Source: Candidatus Eiseniibacteriota bacterium
Lineage (GTDB): Bacteria > Eisenbacteria > RBG-16-71-46 > CAIMUX01
Length of the DNA stretch: 53,277 nt
Direction of reading: 5' to 3'
Assembly: GCA_903844735.1 (NCBI GenBank)
Contig: CAIMUX010000061.1
Coordinates: 1-53,277 of the forward strand
A model generated the notes under the pieces. That model saw only the letters and a program-made list of their open reading frames with translations. It had not been told where the DNA came from and did not search any database. Made by a program: the position numbers and the translations under genes. This document shows, piece by piece, positions 3,263 to 25,646 of this stretch (position 1 is its first letter; each line of letters opens with the position of its first letter).

Positions 3263-5071
3263 CTACGCCTCCCCCAGCACAAGCTTCAACTCACGCACCC
3301 GCTCGTTCACGGCGCCCAAACTCATCGAGCGATACCGCGCCGGCAGGAACCGTGTGTCCGTACACTCTTTCACAGCGAGCAGGTCCATGAGCTCCAGGCG
3401 CTCCGTATGCGCCGAGGGCCGGAAATCGGCTACCACCTCCGCGATCACCTCCGGCATCGGCCGCACTGGACTTCCTTCAGGCTGTGTCTCATACACCCGC
3501 AGGGCCCGGACCAGCACCCCCTCCATCTCGTTGCCGCCGATCTGGTCGTTGTCGGGGAGCGAGGGGAGATCCACCTGAGCGATCTCCATCTTGAGCTTGC
3601 GAGCCATGGCTCCGAAGAGCGCCTGCCGGCTCTCCTGGTCCTGGGGTGGGAAGAGCGGAATGTGCACGTCCAGGCGCCCCTGCCGCTTCAAGTCGACCTC
3701 CAGGAGGTCCGGCCGACTGGTGGCGAAGATCCAGATGATCTTGCCGCGGTTGCGCGTATCGCTCATTTCCGCGGCCAGCATAGCGTAGATCCGGCCCGAG
3801 AGCCCTGCATCTCCTTCGCTGCCGCCGCGCTTGCCGGTCACCTGGTCGGCCTCATCGACGAAGACGAAGACCTGCCCCAGGGCATGCAGGACGTTGAAGA
3901 CCTTCTCGAGATTTCCCTCCGTGGCGCCGACCCACTTCTCGCGGAAGTTCTTCAACTCCACGCACGGGACGCCGACCTCGCCGGCGAGACACTGTACAAG
4001 AAACGTCTTGCCCGTTCCGATACGGCCAGTCAGCAGATATCCCATCGGGATCGCCCGCGTGATCCCCTTCTTGAGCAACTGAGCGTCCTGGCGCAGCCAG
4101 GCCTTGGCTTCCGCGTGACCCGCGACGTCGTCCAGGGTGCGGTCGGACTCCATGAACTCCAGGCGCCCGAACGCCTCCTTTTCGATGAGCTCCTTCTTGA
4201 CCTTCGTGAGGTACTTGCCCGTGATCGTCTCACCCGCCGAAAGGGCGCGCTGGACGAGATTCCTGGCGTTGACGCGAGACAAGCCGACCAGCCTCTCCGC
4301 CAGCACGTCCCGTGGCACTTCGCAGACCCGATCGAACTCGGCCACGTCGGCCGCGAGGTCGCGCATGTAGTCTTTCAGCTCCGCGGCATCCGGCAGGCCG
4401 ATCCGGATCTTCGCGGCGTAGGGGTTCTCCACCAGAAGACCGTTCAGATCCGCCAGCGTCTCGGTGATGAGGACCGTGGTCACGAACGCCCCGGTCACGG
4501 CTGGATCACTGGACCAGTCCAGGATCTGGATGATCGACTGGCTTAAGTCTCCCGAAATGTACAGAGGCTCGCCCGCGGGCGCGATGTAGTGTGCGTAGTC
4601 GATCAACACGGCGATCTTGAGAGGATCGGCGACCGGCTTGCCGTCCACCGGACGCGTCCGGGCGAGCCCGGCCCGAAGGAAACGGTCGATCAGCTCCAAT
4701 GCGCGCTTGGGTTCCCGTGGCAGTTGCCCGGAGAGGTCGAGAGTCTCCAGCTTGTCGGTCCCCGTGTCGGGAATGGAGGCCCAGGATGTACCCTGGAAGG
4801 TGTCAAACATCTTCAGGAAGCGATGAAAGAGGTCGCCTCCCTTGCGCACCCGGATGCCCTTTCCTCGGTCGTAAAGAAGCACCACATCGAACGGGGCAAA
4901 CATCGTCTCCGTCAGGAATCGCCGCAGCGAGACATATTCCGCGGCGCAAGCCTCTTTCACCACCGGCTGCAGATCGGAGACGTTTCCGTAGAGGACGAAC
5001 TGACTGGTGGTCCCGGAACGGAAGATCTGACGCATCTCTTGGGCCCAACCACTGAGCGTATCGCCGGCCAT
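3263..5071 (-). CDS. Ycf46-like classic AAA+ ATPase with degenerate N-terminal ATPase domain; last gene of the PspA/ABC operon
   Basis: 602 aa. The C-terminal half is a classic AAA module: Walker A GRIGTGKT (349-356), Walker B VFVFVDEAD (about 401-409), second region of homology FATSRPD...RQGRLD (449-468) with arginine-finger candidates. The N-terminal half (about 20-240) looks like an inactive P-loop domain: it has strand-like FVLYGN and IAVLIDYAHYI but no Walker lysine. This two-domain plan is typical of cyanobacterial/plastid Ycf46 relatives, whose substrate is unknown. There is no signal peptide or TM segment, so it is cytoplasmic. The start at 5071 is supported by AGAGGAG 6 nt upstream; an ATG further upstream lacks an RBS. 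It follows the coiled-coil membrane gene by 69 bp. Inference: it remodels the PspA-like or membrane proteins of the operon, as Vps4 does ESCRT-III. Confidence 0.9.
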   Translation of the reverse strand: MAGDTLSGWAQEMRQIFRSGTTSQFVLYGNVSDLQPVVKEACAAEYVSLRRFLTETMFAPFDVVLLYDRGKGIRVRKGGDLFHRFLKMFDTFQGTSWASIPDTGTDKLETLDLSGQLPREPKRALELIDRFLRAGLARTRPVDGKPVADPLKIAVLIDYAHYIAPAGEPLYISGDLSQSIIQILDWSSDPAVTGAFVTTVLITETLADLNGLLVENPYAAKIRIGLPDAAELKDYMRDLAADVAEFDRVCEVPRDVLAERLVGLSRVNARNLVQRALSAGETITGKYLTKVKKELIEKEAFGRLEFMESDRTLDDVAGHAEAKAWLRQDAQLLKKGITRAIPMGYLLTGRIGTGKTFLVQCLAGEVGVPCVELKNFREKWVGATEGNLEKVFNVLHALGQVFVFVDEADQVTGKRGGSEGDAGLSGRIYAMLAAEMSDTRNRGKIIWIFATSRPDLLEVDLKRQGRLDVHIPLFPPQDQESRQALFGAMARKLKMEIAQVDLPSLPDNDQIGGNEMEGVLVRALRVYETQPEGSPVRPMPEVIAEVVADFRPSAHTERLELMDLLAVKECTDTRFLPARYRSMSLGAVNERVRELKLVLGEA

Positions 5072-7802: not shown

Positions 7803-9542
7803 TCACTTGGCTTCAGGCGGGTAGACCGAGATCTCCACGCGCCTGTTGAGGGCATGGTTGTTCGGGTCATCGGCGTTCGCGGGGCGGTCCCACGCCGCGC
7901 CCTCGACGATGAACTTGTTGGGATCAAAGCGATACTTGGTCACCAGCGCCTTCTTGACCGAAGCCGCGCGGTCCAGGGAGAGTTGCTTCACATCTTCGTA
8001 ACGCGGCCCCTTCCCCTTCATGGATGCGTCGGTAAACCCAACGACCGCGATGACCGCGCGTTCGTACTGACCGGCGAGCCGGGCCACCTTCTCCAGGGTG
8101 GTCTCCACGCTGGGGTCGTAGAGCGTGTTGGGCACGGGGCGGCCCAGCTCATTGTGCTCCGGCTCGTAAATGTTGGCGCTGTTCGGGTAGAAGTTGATGC
8201 GGATGGTTTGCGTGAGGATGGGCGCCTCGGCCTGAACTTTGGCGAAGGTCGTAGGCGCGAAGGACGACCGGTACTCATCGCGCTGCGTCTTGAAGGCCCC
8301 CTCCGCGTCGAGTTGCTTGAGGACCGAGAAGTCCATCACCTCGTCGAAGCGGACCGGGGTCCCGATGAGGTTCAGCTCCCGATAGACGAAGGTGACGTTT
8401 TTCCAGGTGCGCTCGAAGTTGGCGGGATCGTTTTGGTTCAAGAAGAAGGTCTTGTTTTCGGCGAAATTGGTGGAGTGCGCGTCGTTCTGCATGGAACGTA
8501 CGTCATCGACCGGTATGCCGTATCCCTCGGACATCCACTGAAACGCCTTCTCCTTGAAGCCGGGGTCGGTGAGCTGCCCCATCCCCTCGAAGATTCCCGC
8601 CACCAACCCCTTGACGATTTCCGGGTGGTCCTTGGCGAAATCGGCCCGCACGGCCCAGACATCGGCGATGAGCTTGTTCGCGTCGGAGGTGGTGGTCAGG
8701 ATGCGTGTGCCCGCGACCTTCTCGGGGATGTTATAGATGTCAGGCGCCCAGCTTACACAAGCGTCAATCCGCTTATCGGCGACAAAGGCCGCCGCGGCTT
8801 CGAAGGCGGTTGCGGTGTACTTGTGCGTCACCTCACCCGGCTGGAGCCCGGCCTGCAGCAGCAGGTTGTTGATGAAGTACTGAGAAGGGCTGTTCTGGGC
8901 GTAGACGACGATCTTGCCCTTCAGCTCCTGCACCGATCGGATGTTGCCCCGCACGACGATCCCGTCCCCGCCGTTGGACCAGTCGATCTGCTGGTAGATG
9001 CGCGGAGCTGTGCGCGAGTCCTTCATCAGGTCCGGAGCGAAGAGCGCCATCATGTCCAGGGTTCCCCAAAGAACATGGCTCTCGCCCGCGGCATAGGCAT
9101 CCCGGGCCACCACGGGGTCATCGATGAGCTTCAGGTTCATCTTGAACCCGTACTTCTTGTAGAAGATGCTCTCGGTGTTGGGCGCGAACCCGTGGTTTGC
9201 CGCCACAATCGGGAGCCACCCGATCCAGACGTTGATCGGAAAGTTCACCACCTTCTCGGTCGGATTCCATTTGTAGCCGCTCACCCCCTTTACGGCCGGC
9301 AGCTTCTCCGAGGGGAGGTAGGCGTACTCGTTGACGGTGGTGATCCCCTTAGTGTCCGGCGCCTCCACCTTCCCGACCTGGTTCTTGAACGCGTCTAAGT
9401 CGATCTTTCCCGGCGCACCCGCACCGCCGGGGAAGATCACCCCGCGGAAGTAGTAGCCCGCTCCGCCGATGAGACCCAGGACGACCAGAGTGATGACGAT
9501 CTTGCCCAGCGGCGTCATCCCGACTTTCTGCGTGTCTGCCAT
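7803..9542 (-). CDS. Membrane-anchored SsuA/NMT1-like substrate-binding protein fused to OmpA-like peptidoglycan-binding domain
   Basis: 579 aa. Residues 1-12 are cytoplasmic and 13-31 form an uncleaved-looking TM anchor (no signal-peptidase or lipobox motif). Residues about 80-420 are a NMT1/SsuA-type periplasmic binding fold: WIGWLPIVAANHG, the usual start of these domains, and ELKGKIVVYAQNSPSQYF. Residues 447-579 are an OmpA C-terminal domain with both peptidoglycan-binding residues (D505 in GFTD, R525 in LSLDRA) and the closing NRRVEI (566-571). It would therefore tether a solute-binding domain between the inner membrane and the cell wall. Stand-alone SsuA proteins are free or lipid-anchored, so this fusion is unusual. 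It sits 13 bp after the PspA-like gene and 9 bp before the permease. Substrate is unknown. Confidence 0.9.
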   Translation of the reverse strand: MADTQKVGMTPLGKIVITLVVLGLIGGAGYYFRGVIFPGGAGAPGKIDLDAFKNQVGKVEAPDTKGITTVNEYAYLPSEKLPAVKGVSGYKWNPTEKVVNFPINVWIGWLPIVAANHGFAPNTESIFYKKYGFKMNLKLIDDPVVARDAYAAGESHVLWGTLDMMALFAPDLMKDSRTAPRIYQQIDWSNGGDGIVVRGNIRSVQELKGKIVVYAQNSPSQYFINNLLLQAGLQPGEVTHKYTATAFEAAAAFVADKRIDACVSWAPDIYNIPEKVAGTRILTTTSDANKLIADVWAVRADFAKDHPEIVKGLVAGIFEGMGQLTDPGFKEKAFQWMSEGYGIPVDDVRSMQNDAHSTNFAENKTFFLNQNDPANFERTWKNVTFVYRELNLIGTPVRFDEVMDFSVLKQLDAEGAFKTQRDEYRSSFAPTTFAKVQAEAPILTQTIRINFYPNSANIYEPEHNELGRPVPNTLYDPSVETTLEKVARLAGQYERAVIAVVGFTDASMKGKGPRYEDVKQLSLDRAASVKKALVTKYRFDPNKFIVEGAAWDRPANADDPNNHALNRRVEISVYPPEAK

Positions 9543-9555
9543 GGCTTGTCTCCCT

Positions 9556-10383
9556 TCACTCGCTCTGCTTCGCCGCCGGTCCCATGTCCTTCTGGGGCGG
9601 CTTGACCTCGGTCGTGGCCTCGGCGGCCGGCCTGTCCCCGACTGGGGGCTTGCCCCCGACCGCGGGGGCGGCCGACGCGCCCTCTGTTGAGGCCGCGGCC
9701 GCCGGCATCTCCAGGCCGTAGGAAGCGGCGAACTCGACCAGCGCCTGGTCCGCCAGCGCCTGCTGCTCGGCCTCCATCAGTTCCACCTTGGAGGAATCGA
9801 TCGAAGTGGCGGCCACCCGGGCTCGCCCGGCCGCCTTGTCCCGGCGCTCGGTGAGATATTCCTCCACCCGGGCGACGGTGTCACCCGATCCGCCGATGGA
9901 GGAGATCATCCCCTGCGCCATCTCCTGAAGCTCGGCTTGAGCCTCCAGCATCTCGGTCTCCGTCAGCATCCGCTTCAGTTGCTCGATCTTCTCGTGGGCC
10001 TCTTTCACCGAAACGTCGCGGGCCTGGACGAGTTTCTTGAACGTCTCCTCTGCGGCCTGGAGCTGTGAGCGGTTCTCCTCGATCTGCTCCTTGACCGTCT
10101 TGAGCTGCAGAGCGTACTGGCCGGCCGCGGCGCGGTTTCCCACCTTGAGGTTGGCGGCCGCCTTGGCGGTCAGATCCCGCTCCTGCACTTCCTGGTTCTT
10201 GACCTGCCGCATCAGCCGCTCGCAGAACCCGGCGTGCGTGGCCAGGTTGTCGTTGAAGCGGGCGATCTGCTTGCGCAGGTTTTCCTTTTCGGCCTCGATG
10301 AGCGCCCGGGGATTCTGCTTCTCCAACCCGCTGACGAAGAGGCTCATAAAGCCCGATACGAGGTTCCTGATGCGAGCCCACAT
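9556..10383 (-). CDS. PspA/IM30 (phage-shock protein A, ESCRT-III superfamily)-like protein, first gene of operon
   Basis: 275 aa, nearly all helix. The N-terminal amphipathic segment MWARIRNLVSGFMSLFVSGL is typical of the membrane-binding helix 0 of PspA/Vipp1. A long coiled-coil hairpin follows (about 25-150; charged heptads around NLRKQIARFNDN and IEQLKRMLTETEMLE), with further helices to about 225 and a Pro/Ala/Lys-rich tail unlike E. coli PspA. The family polymerises on stressed inner membranes and belongs to the ESCRT-III superfamily. I start at the ATG at 10383 (GGGAGGGATGG upstream); the same frame stays open upstream but only across unrelated DNA. It probably leads the operon of six genes down to 3263. 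Confidence 0.88.
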   Translation of the reverse strand: MWARIRNLVSGFMSLFVSGLEKQNPRALIEAEKENLRKQIARFNDNLATHAGFCERLMRQVKNQEVQERDLTAKAAANLKVGNRAAAGQYALQLKTVKEQIEENRSQLQAAEETFKKLVQARDVSVKEAHEKIEQLKRMLTETEMLEAQAELQEMAQGMISSIGGSGDTVARVEEYLTERRDKAAGRARVAATSIDSSKVELMEAEQQALADQALVEFAASYGLEMPAAAASTEGASAAPAVGGKPPVGDRPAAEATTEVKPPQKDMGPAAKQSE

Positions 10384-10439
10384 GGTTCCATCCCTCCCGC
10401 GAGGCCCGGCGGGGGCCGGCGCGTGGCCATCCTTGAACG

Positions 10440-10482
10440 CTTCCTGGGGGCGCATGATAGCACCGGGGCGGCGGGGGGGGAA
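10440..10482 (-). promoter_or_regulatory. Candidate promoter of the PspA/ABC/AAA+ operon with poly-G tract
   Basis: Reading leftward, a TATCAT -10 element lies at 10459-10454, about 70 nt before the ATG. The -35 region is poorly conserved because it falls in a run of cytosines on this strand (eight consecutive G on the + strand, 10473-10480). No sigma-54 TGGCAC-N5-TTGC element, as in E. coli psp, is visible. Support is from motif spacing only. Confidence 0.3.
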
Positions 10483-10562
10483 GTGGGGAGAGCTGGGGCA
10501 GCGGCAAGTCCGCGAAGACCACACCCCGAGACGGGATGGACTGGCGGTGGCGTTCATGGCTC

Positions 10563-10865
10563 CTAGGGCGCCCGAGACGCCGATGGACTCAGGAACCGCT
10601 CCAGTCTCCTCCGGAGTTTCCCGGGGTCCCGGGTTTCGCACTCCCAGACAGTGAGCACGCTCCAACCCTCGCGACGGAGGCAGCGCACGACACGGATGTC
10701 GCGGGCGGCGTTTGTCTGACGCTTGGTGCGCCAGAATTCCGCGTTGGTCTTGGGCTCCACGCGTCCAAACCTGCAATGGTGTTGGTGCCAGAAGCAACCG
10801 TGGACGAATATCAGCTTCCCACGGCCAGGAAATACCAGATCTGGCCGGCCGTCGATGTCCTTTGC
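10563..10865 (-). pseudogene. vsr: 5'-truncated Vsr-type very short patch repair endonuclease
   Basis: The frame encodes the C-terminal two thirds of a Vsr nuclease: GRPDLVFPGRGKLIFVHGCFWHQHHC, then EFWRTKRQTNAARD, then LRREGWSVLTVWECE. These are the catalytic core and zinc-site residues of this family, which nicks T:G mismatches at sites methylated by a cognate C5 methyltransferase. The normal N-terminus (about 40-50 residues with the RxKDTxPE motif) is missing. In frame there is a TAG at 10872-10874, and an ATG at 10871 precedes the core by only 7 codons. No methyltransferase is nearby. The upstream side abuts an AIPR fragment on the opposite strand, so a rearrangement probably removed the 5' end. 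Confidence 0.75.
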
Positions 10866-11180
10866 GTCCATCTACTTCACCAAGAAGAAGAGCCCAGAGG
10901 TGGACCTCCGACGCGTGCGCGTGCCAGCCAAGGTCATCGTTCTGCGGTCGCAAGATCCAGCGGATGAGGAAGCCCTGATCTCCGACACTTCCCGGTACGC
11001 CAACAGCCAGAACGCCGTCAGGCAGTCTGACCTCTCGGCGAACAAGCCCTTCCATGTCGAATTGGAGAAACTCGCCCTGACTACATACTGCCCGGACGGC
11101 GTCGGTCGGTGGTTTTACGAGAGGGCGGCGGGAAGCTACAACACGATGTTGGCTAGGGAGGAAGCGACTCCGGCTCACGT
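10862..11180 (+). pseudogene. Internal fragment of an AIPR (abortive infection phage resistance) protein
   Basis: The + frame reads RVRVPAKVIVL, SRYANSQNAVRQSDLSANKP, FHVELEKLA, then YCPDGVGRWFYERAAGSYNTML. This matches the core of AIPR-family (PF10592-type) proteins, in which a SRYxNSQN motif and WFYERxxGxY box are the hallmarks. Neither N-terminal nor C-terminal parts are present: similarity begins at the Vsr junction near 10862 and stops near 11180 after MLAREEATPA. There is no credible start codon or RBS. AIPR, Vsr, a DNA C5-methyltransferase, MutL-like and Z1 proteins are known to travel together in a class of restriction-modification loci, so this and the Vsr piece are probably scars of one such locus. 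Confidence 0.7.
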
Positions 11181-11882: not shown

Positions 11883-13112
11883 TCACCCCAATCGAGGCAG
11901 ACGCCTGGCGATCTCCCGAATGGTTCCCGCGGAAACACCCGCCCGGGTTGCGTTGCGTTTCCACTCCGCGACGGCGGCTTGCACCTCCTCGATGATGCGG
12001 TCCGCGTCCCGCCCTGCAATGTCGGCTTGCCCGGCCAACTGACGGATGTGCGGCCGGCCCGGGGCGCGCCCCTCACCGGCCAGGGTCATGGAGTGCTCGC
12101 CACCAGGTCCCGGGGCGTACAGCAGGTCATAAGCGGGCGACAGCGACCAGTCGCCGGTGGCGTCGTCGAGGAGGAAGGCGAAGTTCTTCACATGATCGTC
12201 ACGGTTGTAGGCCATCACGTTGAAGACCATGCGGCGGAAGGCCCGTAAGACATCCTGATGATTCCGCGTCAGGAGCGAGGTGGCCTTGAGTAGATCCGCG
12301 TAGTCGGCTGAGGGAATGCGGAAATCGGCGTGAATCAGATTGCCGAAGGTGTGGATGTGAAAACGCCGGTTCCCCTGACGGTCAAATCGCCTGACGCCGA
12401 AGAATCGCTTGCCCGCCGGGGTCTCAAACAACCTCGTGGGGGGCATGTCAATGCCGGCCGCGGAAGCCATCAACGAGTAGGCATACTCGATGGCGCCGAC
12501 ATCGGAAGGATCGGACGTGGCTGGGAACTTGACGATCCAGTGCTCGAACCCGTCGGGCAGGTCGTCTTCGCCCGAAACGATGACGTCGGCGGCAGCGTTG
12601 TAGCCCACCAGCACCTTCGGCCGAGCACCGCCGGGAGAGCCGCCGGCACGCAGGAGTTGAGGCAGCGCATCCTTGGCCGTGCCGGCAAGAACCTGCTGAG
12701 ACTGACGGGCGAGGTTGTGTAGGTCAAACACGCTCTCATCGAGCTGCTCTCTCTCGGCCGGGGGGTGATATGTGAGCGCACCCATCGTCTGCGTGCCGAG
12801 CCAGGCGAGTCGACCCAGCGAGCTGACCTCGGCCACGTTCAGGTCGAGCGATCGGAAGTGACCGTCCATCAGCAACCGGCCCCAACCATCGGGCAACGAG
12901 TCGTCGAACACGCCCGGCAGGGGACCGAATTCGCGATCGCGGTGCTCGAACAGTCCGGGCTCGAACGGCAGGCGGAAGGGCGACAGATTCAGGCCCGTGG
13001 ACAGAAATCCAGGGTCATACTCGAAATACACCCGACTACGATCCTCGGCCAGCGTGCCGCCAGGCAGCCAGTCGCCGGGACCTCGCGTGAACCGGACCTC
13101 CAGCTTCTTCAG
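11883..13112 (-). CDS. hipA: HipA-type toxin Ser/Thr kinase
   Basis: About 409 aa. The N-terminal HipA_N-like domain includes LPDGWGRLLMD. The kinase-like C-domain includes the loop GGARPK, a conserved lysine in HWIVKFP, the catalytic segment NRDDHVKNFAF (about 303-313) and the metal-binding aspartate in LSPAYDLLYAPG (about D329). HipA kinases phosphorylate translation-related targets such as glutamyl-tRNA synthetase to cause persistence. The start is odd: the frame is open to 13151 with no ATG/GTG/TTG before the GTG at 13031, which would cut off about 27 family-like residues (KKLEVRFTRGPG...). A CTG at 13112 overlaps the antitoxin stop as CTGA and would restore a normal N-terminus, so I use it. 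A pipeline may call 13031 instead. Confidence 0.88.
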   Translation of the reverse strand: MKKLEVRFTRGPGDWLPGGTLAEDRSRVYFEYDPGFLSTGLNLSPFRLPFEPGLFEHRDREFGPLPGVFDDSLPDGWGRLLMDGHFRSLDLNVAEVSSLGRLAWLGTQTMGALTYHPPAEREQLDESVFDLHNLARQSQQVLAGTAKDALPQLLRAGGSPGGARPKVLVGYNAAADVIVSGEDDLPDGFEHWIVKFPATSDPSDVGAIEYAYSLMASAAGIDMPPTRLFETPAGKRFFGVRRFDRQGNRRFHIHTFGNLIHADFRIPSADYADLLKATSLLTRNHQDVLRAFRRMVFNVMAYNRDDHVKNFAFLLDDATGDWSLSPAYDLLYAPGPGGEHSMTLAGEGRAPGRPHIRQLAGQADIAGRDADRIIEEVQAAVAEWKRNATRAGVSAGTIREIARRLPRLG

Positions 13113-13420
13113 ATGCGGCCTCGTTTCCGACTTGGAGTCGCGGCCTGCCGCTCAAGGTGCTCGATGCTCTGGGCCTGCGGAGGATGGAACGGTTTGTTGA
13201 ATTCCTCCAGCCGGGACAGGGCATGAGCCACCTTGAGGACGAGGTCCAGCGATGCCATGCCTGTGGTCTCGAACCGCTTGAGTGACGCCGGGGAGATGCC
13301 TGCCCGCCCGGCCAGGGTGTCCCGCGTCCAGCCTTTCAGCAAACGCAGGGCCTTGGCGCGATCGGCCAGGGATTTGCCCACTTCAGTGGGGCTCAGCAGG
13401 GTCAGCAGCGGGGTGTCCAT
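13109..13420 (-). CDS. hipB: HipB-type antitoxin, XRE-family DNA-binding protein
   Basis: 103 aa with a Cro/C1-type helix-turn-helix in residues about 15-70 (KSLADRAKALRLLKGWTRDTLAGRAGISPASLKRFE). It is followed by a short basic tail (PSRKRGR). It precedes the hipA kinase with an overlapping stop/start, the normal order for these modules. By family knowledge it binds the operator upstream of the operon, alone or with HipA, and neutralises the toxin. The ATG at 13420 lies just beyond an AT-rich promoter region. Confidence 0.88.
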   Translation of the reverse strand: MDTPLLTLLSPTEVGKSLADRAKALRLLKGWTRDTLAGRAGISPASLKRFETTGMASLDLVLKVAHALSRLEEFNKPFHPPQAQSIEHLERQAATPSRKRGRI

Positions 13421-23609: not shown

Positions 23610-25646
23610 CTACAGAACCTTTCCATCTCGATAGTGGAAGCTGTCTCCCTTGCTCAACGCAGCCAATTTCACCGTCGCCGGGAAGGCGGTGCCCAACTCA
23701 GTGACAAAGTCCCTGAGCCGCACGCCATACTTGCCGCCGTGCATCGGGAAGAACACCTTCGGCTGCAACTGGGCAAGCTGGTACTCGACGCCGATCTTCA
23801 CCGCGACCTGGTCGCCGAAGTTGCACCCCGAGACCGGCAAGAACGCTAGATCCGGACGAACGCCTCTCGCCACCAAACCGTCGATCTGCGGCTTGAACGG
23901 CCCGGACATGTCGCGGTAGCGGTTGGCGTGGTCGCCGGCATGGAAGATGGTGACACCATCCACCTCCACCAAGAACCCGACGCCGCTGTCGTTCGACTCA
24001 ATGGTTGTCACCTTCATGCCGTCGATGTTCTTGCTCTCCCCGGGGGGCAGGTACACATAGTCGGTCGGCTGGACTTGCGGCGGTGCTTGCGTCTGGGCTT
24101 GCGTCTGGACTTGTCCCGGGGCCGGCCGCGGCCGGAAGCCCATGAGGTAGCGAATCCGCGGTATCTGCTCCTTCCACGTGAAGATCGCCGGATCGTAGTG
24201 GTCTCCGTGTTCGTGCGAAACAAAGACGGCGACGTCCTCGCCCGCCAGCTCCATCGGATTGATGCTGCCGTTCTGCAAGCTCGGCTGATCCGGATTGCGC
24301 CCCATGACCCCCGCATCGAAGATCAAGACGTGGTTCTTCGTCTTCGCCGCCCAGCCGCTGTGGCCCAAGCTCCACACGAACGCCTCGTCCGATCCCGGTC
24401 TCGGCAGGACAAACGGCGCGGACGATGCGCCATCGCGGTCCGATGCCGACTGCGCGCCGGCGGCTGCCAGCGCCTCGACCACACCCCGTTGCCCGTACTG
24501 AAGCGCCACGTCAAGAGGCGTGCGCCCTTCACGATCGCGGGCATTGACCTCAACACCCCTTGACAGGAGGTTCTCCGCCACATCGCGATAGCCGAGAAGC
24601 GCGGCGAGATGCAGGGGCGTCATCCCGAAGTCAACCTGGGTCGGTTTGGGGTCCGCACCGGCCTTGAGGAGCAGGTCCACGGTCTCGGCATTTCCATTGT
24701 CCACCGCGACCAAGAGGGGTGTCTGCCCCCATTCACTTCGCACATCGGGCTTGGCGCCATGCTCCAGCAGAAGCTGCACCATCGGCGCCCCTCCATGCGA
24801 TGCCATGATGATCGGAGTGGAATTCCGACGATCGACGGCGTTGACATCCGCCCCGCGCGCCAGCAAGACCCGCGCAACGTCCGGGCGATCGAACATGGCG
24901 GCATAGTGCAGCGGTGTTGTCCCGTCGGAGTCAGCCGCTGCGACGTTGGCGCCCCGGGCGATCGTCTGTTCCACCCGCTCGGGGAAGCGTCCCTGGCAGA
25001 CCAGATGCAGGGGCGTCCGTCCCTCCCCGTCGCCCCGATTGATATCGCCGCCTGCGGCGAGGATCGGATCCACCAGTCCCCACAACCCGCGCGAGCAGGC
25101 ATAGTGCAACAAGGTTGTGCCCTGTGGCGTGCAGAGATTCAGATCGGCGCCCGCATCAAGGATCAGGCGCACACAAGCACTGTCCCCTCCGCTGGCGGCG
25201 AAACTCAGGCTGTAAGCACCGTTCTTGTCGCGCCGGTTGACATCGGCGCCCCGAGAGAGAAGAAAGCGCACCATCTCCGGCTTGCGGACGACCGCCGCAC
25301 AATGGAGTGCGGTGCTGCCATCGCTGTCGATGCCCTCGATCTCTCCGCCCGCGTCCAGCAGCAATTGTGCGATCTCCACCTGCCCGGCGTAGGCCGCGGT
25401 GTGTAGGGGCAGATCCCTCGTCGGGTTCTCGTTCGGCGCGCTGGCCAGGGATGGATCCTGCCGCAGCAACGCCTCGACCCTCGCCCTGTCGCCGGCCGTG
25501 ATCGCGTCGTGGATCTCACCGGCGTGAGCTAGCGGCGCTGCGATCGCGGCCAGGATCATCACAAGACTCATGACGAAAACCGGCCCGCGCAGATCCCCGC
25601 GCCGGCCCCGGTGAACGACAGGTCTGGACTGCGTGCTCGAGTTCAT
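23610..25646 (-). CDS. Exported ankyrin-repeat protein fused to metallo-beta-lactamase-fold hydrolase
   Basis: 678 aa. A signal/TM segment at about 24-42 precedes roughly eleven ankyrin repeats (about 45-400; recurring DxxGxTPLHxAA with RGADVNA). A metallo-beta-lactamase domain runs from about 420 to 678 with the metal motif SHEHGDHYD, a later FHAGDHANRY and the closing HGGKYG. The MBL part resembles the UlaG-like L-ascorbate-6-phosphate lactonase/Zn-dependent hydrolase group. A Gln-rich insert (QVQTQAQTQAPPQVQ) interrupts the MBL domain. The ATG at 25646 has GGAGG 8 nt upstream. It lies 126 bp downstream of the LytTR regulator gene on the same strand and may be its target or operon partner. 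Function is unknown; the Ank-MBL fusion is unusual. Confidence 0.88.
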   Translation of the reverse strand: MNSSTQSRPVVHRGRRGDLRGPVFVMSLVMILAAIAAPLAHAGEIHDAITAGDRARVEALLRQDPSLASAPNENPTRDLPLHTAAYAGQVEIAQLLLDAGGEIEGIDSDGSTALHCAAVVRKPEMVRFLLSRGADVNRRDKNGAYSLSFAASGGDSACVRLILDAGADLNLCTPQGTTLLHYACSRGLWGLVDPILAAGGDINRGDGEGRTPLHLVCQGRFPERVEQTIARGANVAAADSDGTTPLHYAAMFDRPDVARVLLARGADVNAVDRRNSTPIIMASHGGAPMVQLLLEHGAKPDVRSEWGQTPLLVAVDNGNAETVDLLLKAGADPKPTQVDFGMTPLHLAALLGYRDVAENLLSRGVEVNARDREGRTPLDVALQYGQRGVVEALAAAGAQSASDRDGASSAPFVLPRPGSDEAFVWSLGHSGWAAKTKNHVLIFDAGVMGRNPDQPSLQNGSINPMELAGEDVAVFVSHEHGDHYDPAIFTWKEQIPRIRYLMGFRPRPAPGQVQTQAQTQAPPQVQPTDYVYLPPGESKNIDGMKVTTIESNDSGVGFLVEVDGVTIFHAGDHANRYRDMSGPFKPQIDGLVARGVRPDLAFLPVSGCNFGDQVAVKIGVEYQLAQLQPKVFFPMHGGKYGVRLRDFVTELGTAFPATVKLAALSKGDSFHYRDGKVL

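Follow-up and report, generated by a model that had tools for sequence, protein, structure and literature searches.

The window examined here (the whole stretch of DNA, 53,277 nucleotides) encodes a protein, SBP-OmpA, in which an N-terminal hydrophobic helix, a solute-binding fold and an OmpA_C domain are joined in one chain. We consider it likely that this protein is the membrane-anchored, wall-docked binding subunit of the ABC importer encoded beside it, and that its work is linked to membrane upkeep by PspA and an AAA ATPase. Neither the architecture nor the gene cluster is new. A PBPB+OmpA protein (example OGG56892.1) that occurs with an ABC ATPase, a permease, PspA and an AAA ATPase is described in the passage of Ravi et al. 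(2024, mSystems, PMC11237479) on the PspA/Snf7-AAA-ABC operon, where it is proposed that OmpA touches the wall and that PBPB feeds the transporter. The window cluster matches the operon of that passage both in the fusion of a binding protein with OmpA and in the grouping of PspA, AAA ATPase, ABC ATPase and permease genes, and the same gene set was given nearly the same reading there. The passage is silent on three features described below, the membrane anchor, the PspA tail motif and the secreted paralogue. The literature searched yielded no experimental test of the combination of importer and membrane remodelling. A binding protein held by membrane and wall, if that is indeed the arrangement, would be an unusual importer design.

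The reading frame reported by the first-pass annotation is real, with the correction that it lies on the minus strand, which had not been stated; its ATG is at 9542, its stop codon ends at 7803 and it encodes 579 amino acids. Pfam identifies OmpA at residues 476-563 (E 8e-9) and NMT1 at residues 198-322 (E 2e-6), each scoring better than its curated cut-off, and both families are matched by all 67 of the 67 aligned family members. The alignment of these 67 sequences was the input for an AlphaFold2 model (pLDDT 88.8, pTM 0.82) in which a transmembrane helix at residues 11-31 is followed by the binding fold at about 96-410 and OmpA_C at about 442-575, the lowest confidence being found at residues 37-63. 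The model, Pfam and the structure matches agree with the earlier description of a single chain combining the three parts. Relatives of SBP-OmpA are found in 79 loci with 46-80% identity over most of the protein, and because of this the architecture is far beyond chance. The features of the cluster are collected in the table.

Table. Features of SBP-OmpA and its gene cluster (positions in the window unless loci are named)
Feature	Position	Strand	Basis or remarks
SBP-OmpA protein, 579 aa	7803..9542	-	membrane helix, linker, binding domain, OmpA_C
Predicted N-terminal membrane helix, residues 11-31	9450..9512	-	AlphaFold2 model, hydropathy
Binding domain of TauA/SsuA/NMT1 fold, residues 96-410	8313..9257	-	structure comparison, Pfam NMT1
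OmpA_C domain, residues 442-575, with D505 and R525	7818..8219	-	TagL structure match, Pfam OmpA
PspA-like protein, 275 aa, KDMGP tail	9556..10383	-	Pfam PspA_IM30 (below cut-off), family profile, tail
PspA-like tail KDMGP	9556-9600	-	compared with PspA-like proteins of L002-L077
ABC permease, 308 aa	6867..7793	-	Pfam BPD_transp_1; nearest NCBIfam models SaoP/TauC
ABC ATPase, 281 aa	6025..6870	-	Pfam ABC_tran; Walker A/B, signature, H-loop present
Coiled-coil protein with two hydrophobic helices, 293 aa	5141..6022	-	AlphaFold2 model; no Pfam family
AAA ATPase, 602 aa, CDC48/VCP-like AAA domain at 340-520	3263..5071	-	
Tandem anchored and secreted SBP-OmpA loci	L035, L037, L038, L039, L042, L043, L044, L045, L047, L050		

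The fold of the binding domain is held in common with TauA (Z 28.4 over 286 residues), SsuA (Z 25.7) and CmpA/NrtA (Z 23-24), Z scores of about 23-28 overall, with an identity of only 14-17%. These binding proteins are free or lipid-anchored and have no OmpA domain. TauA/SsuA-type systems also resemble the window in their partners, as a TauC/TauB-like permease and ATPase likewise adjoin the SBP-OmpA gene. The aromatic and acidic residues W106, W109, W159, D163, D187, W265 and D268, which are invariant in the 67-sequence alignment together with Q184 and S220, suggest that one ligand or ligand class is bound throughout the family. Homology makes a small anion or amide the likeliest class. The best NCBIfam matches, TIGR03427 and SsuA_fam, lie far under their cut-offs, and the substrate-named models for urea, sulfonate and taurine binding all missed theirs (73.6 vs 333.9, 62.1 vs 163.5 and 36 vs 490 bits); since all named-substrate models score so far below the cut-offs, no substrate name is given to SBP-OmpA. 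The shared-gene survey of the loci found no gene beyond the six of the cluster that was common to most of them, and no additional conserved neighbour that could serve as a clue to the ligand.

The C-terminal domain aligns with the peptidoglycan-binding domain of TagL (Z 15.1, rmsd 2.2, 112 residues), and the stretch from residue 447 to 579 is thus predicted to fold as OmpA_C, as had been supposed. In an alignment with Omp38, its D505 and R525 fall on the Asp and Arg of the OmpA_C motif. Both of these peptidoglycan-contact residues had been named beforehand, and they prove to be invariant in 67 of 67 sequences, along with the OmpA_C consensus residues G502, L521, S522, R567, R568 and V569. The fold and the Asp/Arg pair are the same as in the OmpA_C domains of Omp38, TagL, PomB and YiaD, and SBP-OmpA probably grips the cell wall through this domain. 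OmpA domains occur at nine places in the window genome, which indicates that wall-binding proteins are usual in this organism. In Omp38, TagL, PomB and YiaD the OmpA_C domain is joined to a barrel, a lipoprotein, a stator or a secretion anchor, whereas in the window protein the partner is a substrate-binding domain. MotB and PomB share with SBP-OmpA a single N-terminal helix and a C-terminal OmpA_C; however, SBP-OmpA lacks an acidic residue in the helix, has a folded binding domain between the two ends, and is not accompanied by a MotA gene in the cluster. A MotB-like stator was ruled out, as columns 15-30 of the 67-sequence alignment contain no D or E at all. A Pal-like lipoprotein was also ruled out, since the first 60 residues of the window protein include no Cys for a lipobox.

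The helix at the N-terminus reads as an uncleaved, N-in anchor. In the window protein the hydrophobic stretch has no charged residue; in the anchored members of the family a short conserved sequence, often of the form GPTxLGK, comes before it, and no conserved signal-peptidase site is visible. Support for the anchor comes from the Riflebacteria/Ozemobacter group, all ten loci of which carry two tandem SBP-OmpA genes. One copy has the GPTxLGK anchor and the other an apparently typical Sec signal peptide that ends in sequences such as AFA-QE; the two types of N-terminus are easily distinguished, the window protein belonging to the anchored one. In those loci where this was checked, a PspA-like gene lies between the two copies. 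The secreted second copies imply that the anchor is not indispensable to every member of the family. They might also be taken to mean that the helix of the window protein is a cleaved signal peptide, which would leave the protein tethered to the wall only, and the G-G-A at residues 26-28 could serve as a weak cleavage site. This is very unlikely in our judgement, given the hydrophobic helix of about 20 residues with its aromatic-basic flank and conserved GPTxLGK start, the lack of a shared AxA site, and the clear distinction between anchored and secreted copies in the ten two-copy loci. Neither the anchored/secreted pair nor the PspA tail motif was found described in the literature searched, which covered the operon passage of PMC11237479.

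Compared with the window protein, relatives have a mean identity of 66-79% in the binding domain, 64-69% in the OmpA region and 39% in the linker that joins helix and SBP, so that the binding domain is the best conserved part of the protein and this linker the least conserved. The linker ranges from 20 to 52 residues across the relatives, whereas the connection from SBP to OmpA (residues 411-441) is nearly constant at 30-33. Such a pattern fits a floppy membrane tether and, attached to it, a stiffer SBP-OmpA unit that has a specific ligand; it does not fit a ruler. Of the first-pass annotation, the inner-membrane anchor, the binding domain and the peptidoglycan-binding fold are supported, but its suggestion of a gauge for inner-membrane-to-wall distance or tension is not. 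A chain with its helix and its OmpA_C domain at opposite ends is what a gauge might look like. However, the linker that would have to serve as its measure is predicted to be disordered, is modelled with low confidence and varies freely in length; sequence is conserved most in the binding domain, and strongly in the ABC motifs; and paralogues of the Sec type exist as second copies in ten loci. Variation in linker length disfavours a ruler or tension gauge, which we regard as highly improbable, and a transporter is favoured over a tension sensor.

The partners of this transporter are encoded in a cluster of six genes, all on the minus strand, in the order PspA-like protein, SBP-OmpA, permease, ABC ATPase, coiled-coil membrane protein and AAA ATPase. 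The first five are 0-13 bases apart or overlap slightly, and the AAA gene is about 70 bases off. By tblastn over 80 loci, that of the window included, the PspA-like gene was found in 69, the permease in 67, the ABC ATPase in 65, the coiled-coil gene in 63 and the AAA gene in 51, many of the loci being truncated at contig ends. Three loci, L052, L055 and L061, showed neither the permease nor the ABC ATPase gene in the stretch fetched around SBP-OmpA. The earlier proposal that the binding protein serves an adjacent permease is upheld by the permease and ATPase genes directly downstream, which are conserved together with it. The importer looks functional, judging from a TauC/SaoP-like permease and an ABC_tran ATPase with Walker A, signature, Walker B and H-loop. 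Two observations on the other loci may be added. The Riflebacteria permease at 9654-11015 (+) of L042 has 453 amino acids, with a long extra stretch after the first hydrophobic segment, and a further conserved protein of about 217 amino acids is encoded near the cluster in L053, L055, L058, L061, L066, L068 and L071.

Most likely, SBP-OmpA binds the substrate for an ABC importer from the taurine/sulfonate/nitrate/urea class. The uncleaved helix and flexible linker would hold it at the inner membrane and keep the binding domain within reach of the adjacently encoded permease, while OmpA_C would dock it on peptidoglycan, a contact that could further limit its movement. The permease and ATPase are presumed to be homodimers because there is one gene of each, and transport would be powered by the neighbouring ABC ATPase. 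Since the transporter is encoded with PspA/ESCRT-III-like, membrane coiled-coil and AAA proteins, import probably works together with maintenance or remodelling of the inner membrane. The same linkage may be read differently, with the binding domain mainly a ligand sensor, the wall-docked SBP signalling via the ABC proteins to the PspA/AAA module to set membrane-stress repair, and transport secondary. The constant linkage of PspA-like and AAA genes is in keeping with this, as are the conserved PspA tail and the fact that a search of the genome turned up no PspA match other than the PspA-like gene of the window. However, the permease and ATPase look complete and the cluster contains no signalling domain, and a role mainly in sensing appears unlikely to us.

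The PspA-like protein scores 29.6 bits with Pfam PspA_IM30, under the cut-off of 33.9, and the profile of its family matches Vipp1/PspA structures. A strict [KR]x[MLI]GP tail is present in 60 of the 64 PspA-like proteins of the cluster, mostly 1-8 residues from the C-terminus, and in L071 it is present twice. The linker that precedes it varies freely but the motif itself does not. Shuffled tails gave the motif at a rate of 0.3% per tail, a comparison that overstates significance because the sequences are akin. The motif is missing from the single control, E. coli PspA, whose last residues are ...KAKMKQDNQ; among close relatives there was only one weak other PspA match in 45 genomes, and hence no tail-motif control there. 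The conserved tail might be a contact motif that recruits the AAA ATPase of the cluster, in which case it would parallel the MIM motifs of ESCRT-III. Taken further, the cluster could be a bacterial counterpart of ESCRT-III and Vps4 with a wall-docked importer, in which the MIM-like tail recruits the AAA protein to dismantle PspA assemblies at sites set by the wall-anchored SBP and the transporter; we offer this tentatively and rate it as rather doubtful. The passage of Ravi et al. (PMC11237479) gives the regulation of PspA that lacks an associated AAA ATPase as unknown. The cluster supplies a PspA-AAA pair together with a short candidate contact motif that can be mutated, and the steady company of the two proteins offers a route to test for a dedicated Vps4-like disassembly enzyme of bacterial ESCRT-III relatives.

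In the AAA protein the active AAA domain lies at 340-520. A sequence comparison of the N-terminal half with the PDB gave no match, and this half shows no detectable resemblance to the C-terminal one; its interpretation as the degenerate (inactive) AAA copy of which Ravi et al. write thus found no sequence support, although it may still be right. In the AlphaFold2 model of the coiled-coil protein there are two hydrophobic helices and long helices. Snf7 was not among the Pfam families shown for it, and a fold search returned generic helical matches only (best Z 10.6, which has little meaning for helical bundles), with BAR-domain proteins among them and ESCRT-III not standing out. It was rejected as a PspA homologue, the hhalign probability being only 3%. 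This protein may be what Ravi et al. refer to, in the passage concerned, as 'Snf7 homologs with a TM segment'.

Relatives of SBP-OmpA carry the labels of at least a dozen phyla, including Acidobacteriota, Planctomycetota, Riflebacteria, Elusimicrobia, Armatimonadota, Aminicenantes and Krumholzibacteriota, although most of the records are metagenome-assembled genomes and the labels may be wrong. Within the phylum of the window itself, a search of 46 other genomes for the SBP-OmpA gene and of 44 others for the AAA gene gave no hit, which indicates that the system is dispensable there and points to horizontal gain or to mis-binning of the contig. Horizontal gain is slightly favoured because another gene of the contig has relatives of 57-58% in the same order. 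The nearest relatives are labelled Acidobacteriota. Elsewhere in the window, a HipA-like kinase gene at 11883-13420 (-) and a small upstream gene have the look of a HipBA-type toxin-antitoxin pair, and a gene at 23610-25646 (-) encodes ankyrin repeats with a C-terminal stretch that matches Lactamase_B_3.
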